NCBI RefSeq assembly: GCF_000235565.1
Contig: NC_017527.1
Location: 1,860,001-1,924,000, forward strand
Reading direction: 5' to 3'
DNA from: Methanothrix harundinacea 6Ac
Lineage (GTDB): Archaea; Halobacteriota; Methanosarcinia; Methanotrichales; Methanotrichaceae
Length of the DNA stretch: 64,000 nucleotides
The notes beneath the pieces were generated by a model, which saw nothing but the letters and a program-made list of their open reading frames with translations, was not told the origin of the DNA and did not search any database. A program made the position numbers and the translations under genes. How positions within the stretch are numbered: the first letter of the stretch is position 1; each line of letters opens with the position of its first letter. Positions 19,586-34,763 of the stretch are shown in pieces.

Positions 19586-20008
19586 TCACCTCCGCCAGCC
19601 GACGGTGGCGTCGGGGATGTTGTCGACCTCTGAGAAGCGGGGCTTGATGTCCAGGAGCGGCGTCCCCTCCAGGGCGTCGAGCTCCCGGACCCGAAGCCTC
19701 CCCCCGGAGACGTCGAGGAGCTCGACGACCCCGAGGCCGATGGGGTTTGGCCGGTTCGGCGACCTCGTCGCGAAGACGCCGTGCTCTTTGCCGTCGTGGG
19801 GTGGGAAGGCCTTGAGCATCTTTCTATCGGCCCGGTCGAGCCAGCGGAGGAGGAAGAGGTGGGTGCACCCCTCCACGTCGGCAAGGCCCGGCAGGAACTC
19901 CTCGAAGACCTCCACCTCGCAGACCTCCACCGAGTGCCTCCCCTGGAAGGGGGCCTCGGCTCTGGTCTTGAAGGGGGAGTGGATTACGCCGATCTGTTTG
20001 AGGTTCAT
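19586..20008 (-). CDS. trmO: TrmO-family tRNA m6t6A37 methyltransferase (TsaA/YaeB fold)
   Basis: A 140-residue protein with the TsaA beta-barrel signature. IGVIHSPFKTRAEAPFQ opens the protein, LFLLRWLDRAD follows, and then comes the diagnostic GVFATRSPNRPNPIGL and a terminal LDALEGTPLLDIKPR. TrmO uses SAM to N6-methylate t6A37 in tRNAs reading ACY codons. The bacterial enzyme has an added C-terminal domain that is missing here, as in many archaeal versions. A second paralogue is present at 56.1-56.6 kb. It is convergent with the flavin reductase; an AT-rich accessory patch starts behind its 5' end. Confidence 0.85.
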   Translation of the reverse strand: MNLKQIGVIHSPFKTRAEAPFQGRHSVEVCEVEVFEEFLPGLADVEGCTHLFLLRWLDRADRKMLKAFPPHDGKEHGVFATRSPNRPNPIGLGVVELLDVSGGRLRVRELDALEGTPLLDIKPRFSEVDNIPDATVGWRR

Positions 20009-20142
20009 GGCGAAAAGAATGTCATCAAGTGAAAAAAGGGTTTCGAAGATCGATAAAAAAAATAAAAGATGCGGGACATGAATTTTATGGGGACCATGAT
20101 ATTCGTATATTTTTGCATACTACGATATGACTAAACATATCT

Positions 20143-20604
20143 TTATTCTCGGATCACAGTGACGTAGTCGTATATCTCTGCCCCATCAGGAAGTTGTTCT
20201 AGTCCAGGCCAAGATTCGTTTACAATACACCCATCCAGATATTCTAGGATCTCCGCATTCGCAGTTTCATCTGCCAGTATGGCATATAGCTTGAACTCCA
20301 TATCATGATCTGGTGGACTACCTATAACCGCTTCAGCTGTCCAATCACCATTGGCCATCATGATTATTGGCAAGTTTCGTTTATCTTGAGGAAAGTGACG
20401 GTTTACACCATCTGGATAAACCGTGATCCAGAGCTCGTATCCCTCTGGTATACCTTTGGAGGTTCCCTCGATATCCTCTCCGATCATGGATACTGTATCT
20501 TCATCTACTGGTGAGGTTATCTCCACTTCTGTAGCCCCAGCACAGCAGACCGTTCCCAAGCCTAGCACTAAGAAGCATAGACTTATTTGCCAATATTTCT
20601 TCAT
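20143..20604 (-). CDS. secreted protein with EITSP-type beta-sandwich domain, unknown function
   Basis: A 153-residue protein with signal peptide (MKKYWQISLCFLVLGLGTVCCAGA) and one external domain. The domain starts VEITSPVDEDTV and contains IEGTSKGIPEGYELWITVYP and an ending WPGLEQLPDGAEIYDYVTV. It resembles Ig-like surface domains, but no specific family is recognised. It is clearly homologous to the outer domain of the IS-interrupted gene just upstream (IEITSPEDNAI, IEGNAKRIPKEDHIW, WPGLEKIPPGARVLDRITV), so the two are a tandem duplication. Base composition is lower in GC than the neighbouring kilobases. Confidence 0.65.
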   Translation of the reverse strand: MKKYWQISLCFLVLGLGTVCCAGATEVEITSPVDEDTVSMIGEDIEGTSKGIPEGYELWITVYPDGVNRHFPQDKRNLPIIMMANGDWTAEAVIGSPPDHDMEFKLYAILADETANAEILEYLDGCIVNESWPGLEQLPDGAEIYDYVTVIRE

Positions 20605-20954
20605 AAGTTTCCCTCCTAATCTCCATATCTGGTCATGAGCTTTTAGGCTATTGTGACTGTTATCCTATCAAGCACCCTGGCACCAGGCGGGATCTTTTCC
20701 AGCCCCGGCCAAGCGCCTGATTTACTTGATTCGTTCATGTAGTCGCTAAGAGATCTGTGAGCTTTGTCGTCCGCCAACAATATAATTATATCGAATTTTC
20801 TTCCTTGATCAGCATCTTTACCCACATTGATATTTCTTATTGACCATTGGCCATTGGGATCAGGATAAATCAGCTGAGATTGCGGATAATATTTATATGT
20901 TGAATACACGTACACAACTGAGGATTCCTAAAAACCTAGCATGTCTATGGAAAA

Positions 20955-20964
20955 CATTATATAC
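20955..20964 (+). promoter_or_regulatory. TATA-like box of the transposase gene
   Basis: attatatact lies about 25 nt before the transposase ATG at 20986, with no Shine-Dalgarno sequence between. This suggests leaderless transcription from within the IS left end. Confidence 0.4.
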
Positions 20965-20985
20965 TAATATATACATGAATAGTGC

Positions 20986-21930
20986 ATGAGTTCTTTTACT
21001 GCATGGGGCCTTCGAGAAGCTTACAAGAACGTAGAGAAGCTGGGCGATAGGCTTTCAAAGATAACGAACTTGATCGAGTGGGAACCATTTCGACCAATTC
21101 TTGAAGAGATGTATCATAATAAAACCGAACGAGGTGGAAGGCCGAACTTTGATGTTATCCTGATGCTCAAGGTGCTTTTGCTCCAGCAGTGGTACGGGTT
21201 GAGCGACCTCGAGACTGAAAAGCAGATTTCGGATCGAATATCTTTTATGAAATTCTTAGGATTTCCTGATTCTATACCCGATTCCAGGACGATATGGCTT
21301 TTTCGCGAGCGGATGGCCCAGACGGGAAAGGATGAGTCCGTTTGGGAAGAGCTCCAGAGACAGCTCGATTTTAAAGGGCTTCAGGTAAAAAGAGGAACCA
21401 TTCAGGATGCAACGTTTATAGAGGCCGACCCAGGAGGTTCAAAGAAACCAAGAAGAGAGACCGCTAGGACTCGTCGGAGCAGGGATGGAACTTGGGCTAA
21501 GAAGGGTGAGGAACTCCATTTTGGTTATAAACTTCATTCTAAAGTCGATATCGATTACGGCCTGATAAGGAGCATCGAATCGACAACTGCTTCGGTGCAC
21601 GATAGTCGGGTTGATCTATCGGTTGAAGGAGAGGTGGTCCTCAGGGACAAAGGATATTTCGGTGTGAAGGCTAAGGGAAACGACTTCACAATGAAACGTG
21701 CAGCAGCGGGTCATCCTCTAAGCGATCTCGATAAGCTGCGAAACCGCTTGATTAGCAAACTGAGATTTCCGGGCGAACGTCAGTTTGCTGTTATTAAAAG
21801 AGTGTTCCGAAGCGCGCATGTAATGGTAACGACGATCCCGAGAGTTCACGTTAAAATGGTATTCACTGCCTTTGCTTTCGACTTATACCAGCTATGTACA
21901 CTTAAAAATGCTGAAATCGTCTCAAAATAG
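20986..21930 (+). CDS. IS5-family DDE transposase
   Basis: A 314-residue transposase. The N-terminal DUF772-like part reads RGGRPNFDVILMLKVLLLQQWYGLSD, then ISDRISFMKFLGF and PDSRTIWLFRERM. The catalytic triad is visible as D141 (IQDATFIEADP), D221 (LRDKGYFG) and E264 in RFPGERQF. No internal stop or frameshift is seen, so it may be active. The gene runs opposite to the gene it interrupts. Confidence 0.93.
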   Translation: MSSFTAWGLREAYKNVEKLGDRLSKITNLIEWEPFRPILEEMYHNKTERGGRPNFDVILMLKVLLLQQWYGLSDLETEKQISDRISFMKFLGFPDSIPDSRTIWLFRERMAQTGKDESVWEELQRQLDFKGLQVKRGTIQDATFIEADPGGSKKPRRETARTRRSRDGTWAKKGEELHFGYKLHSKVDIDYGLIRSIESTTASVHDSRVDLSVEGEVVLRDKGYFGVKAKGNDFTMKRAAAGHPLSDLDKLRNRLISKLRFPGERQFAVIKRVFRSAHVMVTTIPRVHVKMVFTAFAFDLYQLCTLKNAEIVSK

Positions 21931-22594
21931 CGGTAGCTATCGACGAAAAACGAGGAAAAGGATCGAGAATCGACTAAGAGCGGAGAACGAGCTAAAATAA
22001 GAGACGGATCCGAGATAATTAAAGAATGGGCAATGGTAAATAGGAATACTCAACTGGCCAAATATGATCCTCTTTTGGTATTCTTTTTGCGTTGCCTTCA
22101 ATATCGATTTTATTATTTATTATGGCGTTATCTTCTGGTGAAGTTATCTCTATTGTTGGTTGCATATAATCATAAACTCCGGCTAAAACTATTAACATAA
22201 ATATTAAAAATAGTATATAAGATTTCTTCAAATCTCCAGTTTTATAATAATATTTAAATATATAAAACAATATTAAACATGCGCAGATTATCAGTAGTGT
22301 TTGTAACAAACGATAAACATATAGATTTATTTCAGGGATGATAACTAAATTTTTACTTATTAAAGATAAAAATGATAATAAAAAAGCTCCAATAAAAGCT
22401 CCAATAAAAGACATATTAATCATAATACTCTTTAATCTCGTTAAAAATTCATCTAATTTTATTAAAAAATTATATATTGTTTGGTATATCTTTCCCATCT
22501 TGGTTCTCCTCGAATAATCCCAAAATAAAACATAATAGCATCTCAAAGGATAATAAACCTTTTCATCCGTTAATCTTTGACGAGGCAAAAATTG

Positions 22595-22819
22595 GCGGAA
22601 AACTTTCTCCGAAGCCGGACTTAGGAATTTTAAATCATATTAAAACGACCCAAAAACTTTTTTACATCAGTTAGCCTCCGCCTTCACACTTTGAATATCG
22701 TCCCAACCTGTCTCCATTTTTTCTCTGGCGGTCATCGTCCAATGGCGGTTTGGCCAATCTTATCGCAGGTCATCTACTTCAGCCTTGTGAAGTGAACCTC
22801 ACCAGGTGCTATAGTCCCG
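22595..22819. other. non-coding spacer between accessory genes
   Basis: The spacer runs from AT-rich to GC-rich sequence. It holds no gene I can support; it separates the disrupted membrane gene from the esterase remnant. A short palindrome-like stretch (gtgaagtgaacctcacc, near 22789-22805) is the only structure noted. Confidence 0.3.
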
Positions 22820-23194
22820 CTAAGGTAGCTCCGGCCCGCCCCGGCTGTACCCCACCTCGCCCAAGAAGGCCAGCGCGTCGAAGTCGGCGAGGCTCTGAGG
22901 TGTCAGCGGGAAGTAGGTCGGATTTTTTCTGCTCCCCGACCGGATCGGGAGAGCCTCGATCTCTGAGGCCGAAAGCCCCTGGCTCCGGTGGGTAGGGATG
23001 AAGAGCCCCGGCCCCGACGCCGCGGCGAGCCTCGCCTCCAGGGTCCTGAATTCTGGCTCGCCGAAGCCGAGGAGCTCCACCGACGGATCGAGGCTGGCGA
23101 CGATCCGGTCGATGGCGTCGTTGAGGCTGGACGGATCGAGGGAGAACGGGGTCGCCTTATTCAGGATCCATTCGTCGAGGGCATTTTGAATCAT
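22820..23194 (-). pseudogene. erythromycin-esterase-family remnant with large internal deletion
   Basis: The 124-codon frame is a fusion of two ends of a much larger protein. Residues about 1-45 (AIDRIVASLDPSVELLGFGEP) resemble the N-terminus of erythromycin esterase/succinoglycan-type proteins, which normally continue with THG and the catalytic region. From about residue 60 it matches the C-terminus (GLFIPTHRSQGL, ALPIRSGSRKNPTYFPLTPQ, FDALAFLGEVGYSRGGPELP). By my memory of the family (about 400 residues), roughly 270 residues are missing. The active-site His/Glu motifs are therefore absent, so I call it a pseudogene rather than a new small protein. Confidence 0.6.
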
Positions 23195-23201
23195 GGCAGG
23201 T

Positions 23202-23212
23202 GGGGGGGGGGG
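23202..23212 (+). repeat. eleven-G homopolymer
   Basis: A run of 11 G lies immediately upstream (in gene orientation) of the esterase remnant. Such runs are prone to length change and sequencing error. Confidence 0.9.
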
Positions 23213-23228
23213 TCAACTCCCCAATTTA

Positions 23229-23855
23229 TTATAATAGATCATCAGAGCTTATCACCGATATTCCTTTATCTTTCATCTCTGAAACGACGGCACCGATGCT
23301 TCCCTTCGGCAGATCCACCCCCCGCGTGGCGTCGATTATCACATTGCATCTGAATCCATATCGAAGAGAATCCATGGCTGAGTAATAGACGCAGTAATCT
23401 GTGGCGAGCCCGCAGATGAATATCTCTCGTACCTTCAGGGCCTTCAGGTAGCCAGCAAGACCGGTTTCAGTATTTCTGTCGTTTTCAATAAATGCAGAAT
23501 ATGAATCGACCAGGGGATTCATCCCTTTTCTCAATATCAGAGAGAACTTACTTAAATCTAGGTCGTCATGAAATTCAGCCCCCTTCGTCCCCTGTATGCA
23601 ATGATCGGGCCAGAGGGTCTGAGCAATTCCGCTAATATTGATCTGATCGTATATATTTTTTCCTGGATTGTTTGAAGCAAAGGATACCTGATTTTTAGGA
23701 TGCCAGTCCTGAGTGGCGACCACGAGGTCGAATCTCTCCATAATCCCGTTTATGAGAGGGATTATCGAGTCGCCATCTTTGATCTGGAGGGCTCCTCCTG
23801 GACAGAAGTCGTTCTGTACATCCACGACGATGAGAACCCTTCTACCGCCTTTCAT
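23229..23855 (-). CDS. pncA: nicotinamidase (isochorismatase-like hydrolase)
   Basis: The 208-residue protein has the full cysteine-hydrolase triad of PncA: Asp12 in VVDVQNDF, Lys in ILRKGMNP, and Cys in CGLATDYCVYYS. The metal-binding ATQDWHP and the WPDHCIQGT segment that distinguishes nicotinamidases from other isochorismatases are also present. It converts nicotinamide to nicotinate for NAD salvage in the cytoplasm. It is apparently monocistronic, preceded by a spacer of about 160 bp to leuS on the same strand, and may be at the end of the dapL-leuS transcript. Confidence 0.92.
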   Translation of the reverse strand: MKGGRRVLIVVDVQNDFCPGGALQIKDGDSIIPLINGIMERFDLVVATQDWHPKNQVSFASNNPGKNIYDQINISGIAQTLWPDHCIQGTKGAEFHDDLDLSKFSLILRKGMNPLVDSYSAFIENDRNTETGLAGYLKALKVREIFICGLATDYCVYYSAMDSLRYGFRCNVIIDATRGVDLPKGSIGAVVSEMKDKGISVISSDDLL

Positions 23856-31869: not shown

Positions 31870-31897
31870 TGCAGCAAAATAGGAGCTTGTGGAGAGC

Positions 31898-33109
31898 ATG
31901 AAAGCAAAATCCCTATCAGAGATTTATGACATATTCGACCCTCAAGAGGCGCTGTCTGGGGAGACGCTCAAAGAATATTACGTGAGGAGAGAGAGTCCAA
32001 TAGATAGGCATGCAAATGCACTCCGATCGAGCGGAAGGCCGCTGAAGTACCTTTTTGTAGGAAGCAGGGGAAACGGCAAGAGCACAGAACTTAACAGGTT
32101 ATCCGAGATTTTGGAGGATGATCTCCTCATAGTCCCCTTCTCAATAAGGGACAAGCTGAATTTATATGATATAGAATATTCAGATATTTTGCTCATCATC
32201 GCTGCAGAGATTTATGAAAGAGTCTCTGAAAATGTCGAATTGAGCAGCAAGTTGAGCGATTACCTCGATTCGTGGTCTGAAAAAGTGATAGAAAATGAGA
32301 AGAGTTATGGATTGAGCGCCGAAGCGAAGGCCGGCTTCGCTGCGTTCGTATTTAATATCACAGGGAAGATGAAGACCGAAGCTTCCACAAGAGAAGTTAC
32401 AAGGAAGGTCATACAGCCACAGCTCAGCGACCTGATATATGCTGTGAATAAGATAATAATTGAGGCTGAAGAGAAACTCGATAAGAACATCCTCGTCATA
32501 ATCGACGACCTCGATAAGGTGAATCTGGAGAAGGGAGAAGAGCTGTTCTACAAGCATGGTGCTGAGCTGACGTCGCCGATCTGCAGGATTATCTACACGA
32601 TTCCCCAACCTCTTCTATTCTCCAATAAGATAAGGCAGATCGTCCTTCAGTATTTTGACGGTCGTATAGACCTTGGCAATATAAATATCTATAATAGGAA
32701 CGGTGAGCTGGATCCTGAAGGATGCGATCTTATGAAGCAGGTCGCTCTAAAGAGGATGGACGAGTCTCTGATATCAAAAGATGCTCTGAACCTGGCCGTC
32801 AAGTACTCCGCAGGAGTTATGACGGAGTTTATAAGGATAATAAGATCTGCGGGGAATATCGCAGATACCGATGGCAGGCGCAGCATAGAGTTATCAGATG
32901 TAGAGCAGGCCATCGCAGATACCAAGAACGATTATATCAGGATTCTCAATCCTCAGGACATAGAGATTTTAAAAGAAGTGATGAAAACGAAAGGCAAAGT
33001 TGGCGGAGAAAAATTCCAGGATCTGCTCTTCAGCCTTGCGATACTCGAATACTCGAACGGTGAGGCCTGGTATGACATCCACCCTGCCATCAAGAGAATT
33101 ATTAAATGA
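31898..33109 (+). CDS. P-loop ATPase (AAA/STAND-like) of a two-gene accessory unit
   Basis: The 403-residue ATPase has Walker A GSRGNGKST near residues 55-63 and Walker B ILVIIDDLDKV near residues 197-207. A helical C-terminal part follows with ISKDALNLAVKYSAGVMTEFIRIIRSAG, resembling the lid and winged region of ORC/STAND-type ATPases. An N-terminal segment (residues 1-40) has FDPQEALSGETLKEYYVRRE. No transmembrane helix is seen. The GC content is far below the flanking genes and codon use is different. It overlaps the TPR gene by 38 nt, so the two act together. The start could also be GTG 31889. A regulatory or defence role is inference. Confidence 0.75.
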   Translation: MKAKSLSEIYDIFDPQEALSGETLKEYYVRRESPIDRHANALRSSGRPLKYLFVGSRGNGKSTELNRLSEILEDDLLIVPFSIRDKLNLYDIEYSDILLIIAAEIYERVSENVELSSKLSDYLDSWSEKVIENEKSYGLSAEAKAGFAAFVFNITGKMKTEASTREVTRKVIQPQLSDLIYAVNKIIIEAEEKLDKNILVIIDDLDKVNLEKGEELFYKHGAELTSPICRIIYTIPQPLLFSNKIRQIVLQYFDGRIDLGNINIYNRNGELDPEGCDLMKQVALKRMDESLISKDALNLAVKYSAGVMTEFIRIIRSAGNIADTDGRRSIELSDVEQAIADTKNDYIRILNPQDIEILKEVMKTKGKVGGEKFQDLLFSLAILEYSNGEAWYDIHPAIKRIIK

Positions 33110-34763
33110 GCTGAAGCTGGCTAAGGGTAAGAACAGCTTGATCTTTGGCATCACAGAAGATCGAGACGGGTTAAGTCAGCTTCTAAAATCGAATAATTTT
33201 GACGTACGTTTGATTGACCTCAGAGACAACGGCAACCTGCTCCAAATGCTGGTTGATTGGAAAGACACACCCGGTAACGCGGTTTATCTGATTTATGGGC
33301 TCTCAAGTCAATTTCCCGCAGTGCTAGGATACTTGAATTTACATCGAGACCTTTTGTATCAAATCAAGAGACCCGTTTTAATGGCTGTAAGCGAATACGA
33401 GATAAGAGAGATACAGAAACATGCTCCTGACTTATATCGATACAGAAGTAGGACGTATAACCTCAAATCGAAAGGAAAGATTGAGACGAAACCGATTTTC
33501 TCAGAGTCAAAGCCTGTTTATTATAAATTACCAATCTTTGAAGAGAAGATCGATGCGGATGCCATAAGAGATAGGATAAAGCTAGATGAATATATGCTAG
33601 GAACTATAACAGATGACTATAATAAATCTGAAATATTTATGGACATTGCTGTTTCTTATTATAAGTTGGACGATTTAGATAAGGGTGATGACTACTCAAG
33701 AAAATCAATGCATATAAAAGAGCTATTAAATGATGAAAAGGGTATTATATTAAATTATGATAGACTAATTCAGGTTTTTCTGTTTAAAACGCAATACCGA
33801 AAGGTTATCCAGCTATCCAGCAAACTATTGAAGTTAAATCCAACTACAGCTTCGACTTATGAAAATCTCGCCGAAGCTTATCGTATGTTGGGACAAATAG
33901 ATAAATCTTTAGAATGCTTAGACAAGGCGATAGAACTTGATCCACAAGCCGCAAGATCGTGGTTCAATATGGGCTTAGCACTCGACGACCTAGGCCGGAA
34001 GGATGAGGCTCTTAAAGCCTTCGAAAAGGCAATCGAAACTGATCCAGAAGATGCTGCAGCATGGGCAAACAATGGATATGCACTCTACTACCTGGGCCGG
34101 ATTGAAGAGTCGCTTAAGGCCAGCGAAAAGGCAATAGAATTTGATCCTCAAGCTGCTGAAGCATGGACAAACAAGTCCTCGGCTCTAGCCCAAATGGGAC
34201 GGATAAAAGAGTCACTTGAAGCCAGCGAAAAAGCGGTTAATCTTAATCCAAAATTAGCCATGGCATGGAACAACAAGGGCTCAGTTCTCTATGATCTTGA
34301 CCGGGCTGAAGAGGCGATCGAGGCTTTAGACAGGGCAATCGAACTCGATCCAAAATTAGCCATGGCATGGTCCAACAAGGGCGTAGCTCTCGGTAGTCTT
34401 GGCCGGATGGAAGACGCTCTTGATGCCTACGAAAAAGCGATTGAACATGATCCAAAAGACGCAATCACATATATAGCTCTCGTCCGCCTCTACCGCAAGC
34501 TCGGCCGAGAAGCCGATAGCATCGAAGCCTGCAAAGCCGCCCGCGATCTCATCGAGACGGAGAGCGAATACAACCGCGCCTGCTTCGAGGCGGTCTGCGG
34601 CAGCCCCGATGCCGCCCTTGCGCTGCTCAGGACCGCCCTGGAGAATAAGGAGGAAACTGCGGATTGGGCGCGCCGGGACCCCGACTTCGAGTTCATCCGG
34701 GACGACCCCCGCTTCGCCGCCCTGCTCGACGAGTTCTCGCCCGACGGGGAGATGGGGGCGTAG
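33072..34763 (+). CDS. TPR protein with N-terminal STAND-associated-like domain, partner of the ATPase
   Basis: The 563-residue protein has three parts. Residues 1-130 hold a Rossmann-like domain with VYLIYGLSSQF, NLHRDLLYQIKRPVLMAV and HAPDLYRYRSRTYNL. This recalls the LNLRRD...APDFWxWRS region of bacterial STAND/TPR regulators. Residues 130-250 are helical. From about residue 257 come six to seven TPR units (AWNNKGSVLYDLDRAEEAIEALDRAIELDP type). The last roughly 90 residues (ACFEAVCGSPDAALALL...) have GC-rich codons unlike the rest. The start overlaps the ATPase gene. Likely a protein-interaction sensor; no enzyme motif is visible. Confidence 0.75.
   Translation: MTSTLPSRELLNELKLAKGKNSLIFGITEDRDGLSQLLKSNNFDVRLIDLRDNGNLLQMLVDWKDTPGNAVYLIYGLSSQFPAVLGYLNLHRDLLYQIKRPVLMAVSEYEIREIQKHAPDLYRYRSRTYNLKSKGKIETKPIFSESKPVYYKLPIFEEKIDADAIRDRIKLDEYMLGTITDDYNKSEIFMDIAVSYYKLDDLDKGDDYSRKSMHIKELLNDEKGIILNYDRLIQVFLFKTQYRKVIQLSSKLLKLNPTTASTYENLAEAYRMLGQIDKSLECLDKAIELDPQAARSWFNMGLALDDLGRKDEALKAFEKAIETDPEDAAAWANNGYALYYLGRIEESLKASEKAIEFDPQAAEAWTNKSSALAQMGRIKESLEASEKAVNLNPKLAMAWNNKGSVLYDLDRAEEAIEALDRAIELDPKLAMAWSNKGVALGSLGRMEDALDAYEKAIEHDPKDAITYIALVRLYRKLGREADSIEACKAARDLIETESEYNRACFEAVCGSPDAALALLRTALENKEETADWARRDPDFEFIRDDPRFAALLDEFSPDGEMGA

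Follow-up and report, generated by a model that had tools for sequence, protein, structure and literature searches.

The window considered here is a stretch of 64,000 nucleotides from the genome of Methanothrix harundinacea 6Ac (2.57 Mb, two contigs), which counts Candidatus Methanocrinis natronophilus among its close relatives. It contains two overlapping genes whose base composition departs from that of the surrounding chromosome. The locus raises the question of whether these genes form a unit of their own and, if so, what such a unit might do.

Both genes, and all of the protein features described below, lie on the forward (+) strand. The first gene encodes an ATPase and extends from GTG 31889 (406 aa) or ATG 31898 (403 aa) to a stop at 33109. 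The ATG is probably the real start, since homologues start M(K/P)(A/R)(K/R) and a GGAG is located just 5′ of this codon. The second gene encodes a TPR protein of 563 aa, termed the partner here, and extends from ATG 33072 to a stop at 34763. A first-pass annotation of this DNA had described two open reading frames overlapping by 38 nt and had quoted the ATPase motifs GSRGNGKST and IIDDLDK. Both frames are present, the overlap spans 33072–33109, and the motifs occur exactly as stated. The pair forms a low-GC insert within a high-GC chromosome, with 44% and 39% GC in the 32–34 kb interval compared to 61–65% in the flanks. The contrast in composition claimed for the whole unit does not extend to the last ~290 bp of the partner gene (34473–34763), which are high in GC like the host and correspond to TPR genes resident in sister species. 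The genes around the pair are housekeeping genes, and there is no effector gene within the unit. A further low-GC patch (38–46% GC) with small unnamed ORFs occurs elsewhere in the window at 20001–23500, and it includes a transposase-like ORF at 20986–21930.

The product of the first gene (31898–33109) is predicted from a structure model (pLDDT 90), Foldseek and NCBIfam to be an AAA+ ATPase with an Orc1/Cdc6-like core, a lid and a C-terminal winged helix. The Walker A motif, or P-loop, GSRGNGKST (32060–32086, residues 58–66) features G58, G61, K64 and T66, which are invariant across 26 aligned homologues and present in 46–47 of 47 sequences in a wider set. D206 of the Walker B motif NILVIIDDLDK (32486–32518, residues 200–210) is found in all 47 sequences of that set. 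The best Foldseek matches of the model are archaeal Cdc6/Orc1 structures (1fnn, 3.8e-10; 2qby, 9.1e-10), and these are followed in the PDB by RuvB, TnsC and others, including RdrA. The helical lid (32714–32944, residues 276–352) is placed by the secondary structure of the model and by Orc1/Cdc6 lid matches, with TIGR02928 matched in NCBIfam at 2.6e-7. The C-terminal region (32951–33103, residues 355–405) adopts an HH-EE-H pattern in the model and contains Y388 and W394, which are invariant in the homologue alignment; from this pattern and from Orc/Cdc6 architecture we infer a winged helix. Sequence and model together show both Walker motifs as well as the core and lid fold of AAA+ proteins, which places the product of the first gene in the AAA+ superfamily. 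Scans of Pfam, NCBIfam and PADLOC yield only weak families for this protein. Its nearest NCBIfam match over the NTPase core is the P-loop ATPase Sll1717 family (NF047389), which several members match at 25–40 bits, all far under the 75-bit cut-off of that family. Against PADLOC-DB 2.0.0 there is no confident system-specific match, the best having an E-value of 0.0056.

The N-terminal domain of the partner (33072–33470, residues 1–133) lacks a P-loop and contains the motif LNLHRD...HAPDLYRYRS, which corresponds to the LN..R..APDFWxWRS motif of its homologues. The first-pass annotation had likened this region to a STAND-associated domain; the family proved to be real, and its predicted fold is that of an AAA+-like module without a P-loop. 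The model consists of blocks mostly at pLDDT 70–89, and all of its listed PDB matches are AAA+ proteins (clamp loaders, archaeal Orc2, HolA, Hda, Sir3 and others), with a best E-value of 4.9e-4 and TM-scores of about 0.3–0.47 over a model that includes a disordered tail. Sequence profiles reveal no link between the domain and AAA+ proteins, so this kinship rests on the predicted fold. The domain matches no Pfam or NCBIfam family, the PADLOC-DB 2.0.0 matches of the partner fall in its TPR region only, and a sequence profile of the partner finds only weak matches in the PDB, largely to designed proteins. It is with moderate confidence, then, that the domain is described as AAA+-like and catalytically dead. 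An origin as a simple duplicate of the ATPase was also considered, and is unsupported because there is no sequence-level homology between the two.

Four residues of this domain are highly conserved among 47 paired sequences: N89, R92 and D120 are present in all of them, and R125 in 45. In the model, R125 sits between the last helix (119–124) and the last strand (127–130), the position before strand 5 at which AAA+ proteins carry their arginine finger, and an arginine finger acting in trans is proposed on the basis of this position. R125 is absent from several cyanobacterial domains and one Thiomargarita partner domain, so such a finger would not be universal and is offered tentatively.

The collected homologues show that the two genes are conserved as a unit. 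The partner gene adjoins the ATPase gene, ATPase first and mostly with an overlap, in 63 of the 65 distinct loci with enough downstream sequence; these loci span archaea, Thiomargarita, Acidobacteria and plasmids of cyanobacteria. Only two loci deviate, Nostoc L063 with its SAV_2336 fusion and the partial match L156. The distribution of the ATPase is patchy: it occurs in 21 of 100 genomes of relatives, in 17 of 321 good-quality genomes of a phylum sample and, beyond archaea, in Thiomargarita, cyanobacterial plasmids, an Acidisarcina plasmid and 10 of 398 Pseudomonadota. In the same 100 archaeal genomes there are 27 partner domains, distributed over 23 genomes, and 22 of these adjoin an ATPase. 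Upstream of three of the five lone domains is a remnant that starts like the ATPase (e.g. MPRAKNLKEAYNN) and has an internal deletion, and the remaining two are disrupted, with a stop inside the domain. In Pseudomonadota, every one of the eight genomes that carry a partner domain belongs to the 10 that carry the ATPase, an overlap that has a chance probability of ~3e-15 by simple counting that ignores relatedness. Moreover, ATPase and partner distances correlate across 47 pairs with r = 0.94, compared to a permuted maximum of 0.12. Comparison of gene order and divergence shows that ATPase and partner travel and diverge together, the correlation alone being no proof of contact, and the case that the partner is obligately paired with the ATPase is strong. 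The idea that the two genes usually occur apart clearly fails on the counts from the 65 loci, the archaeal genomes and the Pseudomonadota alike.

The pair has no name in Pfam, NCBIfam or PADLOC, and no published description of it was found in the open-access literature; this agrees with the earlier view of an undescribed, non-housekeeping two-chain unit. The observation does not reflect chance, for the two genes occur with the same order and motifs at 63 distinct loci, and a sister genome has an empty site. A second, distant pair is found in the same genome (G000:C2:50100-53400; L003:6119-9381), with an ATPase that is 35% identical.

The history of the site indicates how the pair came to be there. 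The window ATPase is 64–66% identical to copies in family f10 of the genome set, to which genomes named Methanophagales and Syntrophoarchaeum belong, compared to only 35% for the paralogue in its own genome, and in a tree it is nested among the f10 sequences with 100/99 support. In the sister genome G006, the segment 31814–34766 is missing, about 116 nt are found instead, and the flanking genes are joined. Nesting within a foreign family, low GC and an empty site together argue that the two-chain unit is horizontally acquired. In other sister genomes the same site is occupied by different genes: other low-GC TPR genes in G003, G007 and G008, a DUF4238 gene in G001 and a remnant in G002. All of these end in the high-GC tail of the window TPR gene (34473–34763), which encodes a TPR end-of-group domain common to unrelated resident genes at this site in sister species; partner residues 500–552 match NCBIfam TPR_END_plus, and the tail is 91% identical to that of G007 by blastn. 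Incoming genes would appear to recombine onto this resident 3′ tail. The site, located 3′ of a P-loop kinase gene, has the character of a hotspot (window 34473-34763; L059, L177, L179, L180, L181) in which the N-terminal modules differ (membrane-TPR, DUF4238, the present pair) and the C-terminal tail is common.

It could be argued from these observations that the pair is a mobile-element accessory, with a TnsC/Orc-like ATPase and a target-selection partner that serve DNA movement only. Such an accessory would fit the likeness of the ATPase model to TnsC and Orc1/Cdc6 and the presence of the unit as a discrete insert at one site. However, no transposase or recombinase gene accompanies the pair among the archaeal neighbours listed, and the 3′ tail, being shared with other resident genes, suggests homologous recombination at the TPR tail and not the ends of an element, so that we consider this explanation very improbable. 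In Methanocrinis natronophilus (G007, L059:8871-10494), an insertion of ~1.6 kb, with an opposite-strand ORF inside and the 11-base repeat CCTTTTCGTGG on both sides, splits the ATPase just before its P-loop. This genome is a natural ATPase knock-out with an intact partner gene.

The TPRs expected after the N-terminal domain of the partner are readily recognized (Pfam TPR_1, 2.8e-52) and form an arm at 33846–34571 (about residues 259–500) that is variable both in sequence and in the number of repeats. Among nine close pairs, the ATPases are 88–98% identical and the partner N-terminal domains 81–95%, while the TPR remainder is 56–78% identical in eight of them and differs in length by 320 residues in the ninth. 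An arm that diversifies for recognition would vary in this way, but TPR arrays, being rich in repeats, are liable to change even without selection, which tempers that interpretation.

The genes fused or adjacent to relatives of the pair offer some indication of its output. On the Calothrix plasmid AP018277.1 (L067:6848-14352), two tandem ATPases, the second with a fused TIR domain, are followed by one protein in which two partner domains in tandem are combined with an nSTAND1 NTPase, a layout that suggests 1:1 pairing. Tandem ATPase genes are also found at L144:2-3633, followed by a partner gene running off the contig end, and these are possibly duplicated pairs again. On plasmids of Acaryochloris and Nostoc, the partner domain is N-terminal in long proteins with nSTAND1 and/or WD40 regions. 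In Thiomargarita, one partner domain is fused to a NACHT-like NTPase, and another stands alone with a NACHT protein next. In the Methanotrichaceae genome G017, two genes come after the pair, one for a phosphoesterase-TIR protein and one for a TIR-NB-ARC-TPR protein, and in G026 a caspase-domain gene comes after a partner whose ATPase has decayed. With TIR, caspase, NACHT, nSTAND1 and NB-ARC domains fused to or located beside some relatives, it is reasonable to assume a signalling role; the ties to TIR, caspase, NACHT and nSTAND1 were picked by eye and are suggestive. Most archaeal pairs, including that of the window, have ordinary neighbours only, and no constant third gene was seen in archaeal loci, in both cases among the neighbours listed. 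In a Methanophagales genome, a 968-aa nSTAND3-TPR-like protein is located directly upstream of the pair (L009:3043-5946).

One possible purpose of such signalling is defence or abortive infection, in which the TPR arm would sense an invader and the ATPase complex would trigger cell arrest or death. The patchy, horizontally moving unit, its diversifying sensor arm and the TIR fusion and TIR/NB-ARC, caspase and NACHT links of relatives are all in keeping with this role, as is the presence of the pair on conjugative plasmids of cyanobacteria, with HicA/HicB, TIR and NB-ARC genes nearby. An enrichment in defence islands, which had been named as a check on such a role, was not seen: 110 neighbours of archaeal copies match 61 PADLOC families, whereas 110 genes drawn at random from related genomes match 182, in a crude scan with greedy ORF choice, possible spurious ORFs, imperfectly matched control genomes and 25 families listed. 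Together with the ordinary neighbours, these counts give no defence-island signal in archaea, and for this reason a defence role is kept conditional. In addition, the archaeal unit is without an effector, the ATPase has only the weak PADLOC match given above, and no homologue of it was found in phage records or confirmed in IMG/VR viral contigs, the latter by a scan with short peptide patterns that distant copies may escape. A defence role is thus a possibility that falls well short of being probable.

Alternatively, the pair may be a stress or developmental regulator unrelated to defence, which assembles or remodels protein complexes as a chaperone or scaffold upon a host signal. The housekeeping neighbours at most archaeal loci (among those listed), the second chain with TPRs only and no effector, and the coexistence of a second, distant pair in the genome are consistent with such a regulator. 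So is the chaperone-type context of a plasmid of Nostoc sp. C057 (L063:4391-8260), where the ATPase carries a fused SAV_2336 N-terminal domain and lies beside a MoxR ATPase. A core regulator would not be expected to occur so very patchily in the phylum sample, nor to be decayed, disrupted by an IS or missing from its site in close relatives, and this alternative is rather unlikely. The partner domain was not found with the Nostoc C057 fusion, and the ATPase might therefore work without its partner. The fusion also ties the ATPase family to MoxR-type ternary systems.

The interpretation that we favour, and hold to be reasonably probable, is a horizontally acquired, two-subunit signalling switch of AAA+/STAND type with a dead AAA+-like partner module. 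Its nearest published logic, compared by published description only, may be that of nSTAND2. nSTAND2 is described as a bacterial, mobile two-gene operon of two STAND modules, one active and one with an eroded NTP site (Kaur et al. 2021, eLife 10:e70394, PMC8195603). Both are reported to have a conserved arginine finger, and to the eroded one are attached C-terminal modules that vary, GT4 or HEPN effectors being the most common. As far as that account goes, both systems comprise adjacent genes for an ATPase with Walker A and B motifs and a partner that is NTPase-like, here by predicted fold and without a P-loop. Here, however, the dead module is ~135 aa long, has no recognisable NTPase sequence similarity and carries TPRs, and most of the pairs found are archaeal. 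GT4 or HEPN was not seen on the partner; the scanned examples carry TPR, nSTAND1/WD40 or NACHT modules.

Single-chain STAND NTPases with C-terminal TPRs (MalT/AfsR-type, NB-ARC-TPR) share the logic of an NTPase, a lid and winged helix, and a TPR sensor. In contrast to these proteins, and as the first-pass annotation had noted, the NTPase and the sensor are split, with the repeats on the second chain in the window and in other archaeal pairs; the sensor chain also has its own degenerate AAA+-like domain. Orc1/Cdc6 and the sliding-clamp loaders (delta, delta-prime and RFC subunits) resemble the ATPase and the partner domain in their predicted fold, and likewise involve AAA+ assemblies that combine active and dead subunits, but the present distribution is patchy and accessory and a replication role is not indicated. 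The iSTAND/iSTAND2 MoxR-vWA ternary systems (Kaur et al. 2020, 2021) also use an inactive NTPase module as a sensor component, and the Nostoc relative with its SAV_2336-N fusion beside MoxR recalls them. The window pair has neither a MoxR nor a vWA gene alongside it, and among the archaeal neighbours listed no such gene was picked out by eye.

In the proposed switch, the first gene would supply the working ATPase, with its AAA+ core, Orc1/Cdc6-like lid and winged helix, and the second an adaptor-sensor composed of the catalytically dead module and the TPR arm. The dead module would dock on the ATPase, where R125 could complete the ATP site in trans, and a ligand bound by the TPR arm would control ATP-dependent assembly and output. 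In some relatives this output may be a TIR, caspase, NACHT or nSTAND1 module, either fused or adjacent; for the archaeal two-gene form, a scaffold or an effector encoded elsewhere are candidates. The physical complex, the trans arginine finger, the switching and any defence or cell-death purpose are all points that we infer. It is doubtful, if conceivable, that the pairs represent a family of split AAA+ switches for immunity or cell death, so far undescribed and common to archaea and bacteria, in which a separate ATPase would depend on the dead AAA+ domain as its obligate and portable activator and would be connected by it to interchangeable sensors (TPR, WD40) and effectors (TIR, NACHT, nSTAND1, caspase).

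As judged from sequences and models, the pair is best read as a split AAA+/STAND-type switch, for which the pairing is strong, the fold moderate and the mechanism conjectural. Natural broken copies of the pair already exist for comparison, and the stoichiometry and the arginine finger are directly testable. If this reading is true, the uncharacterised LN..R..APDFWxWR domain family would become a dead-AAA+ activator working in trans, and NLR/STAND-like logic could be split into two portable chains in archaea.
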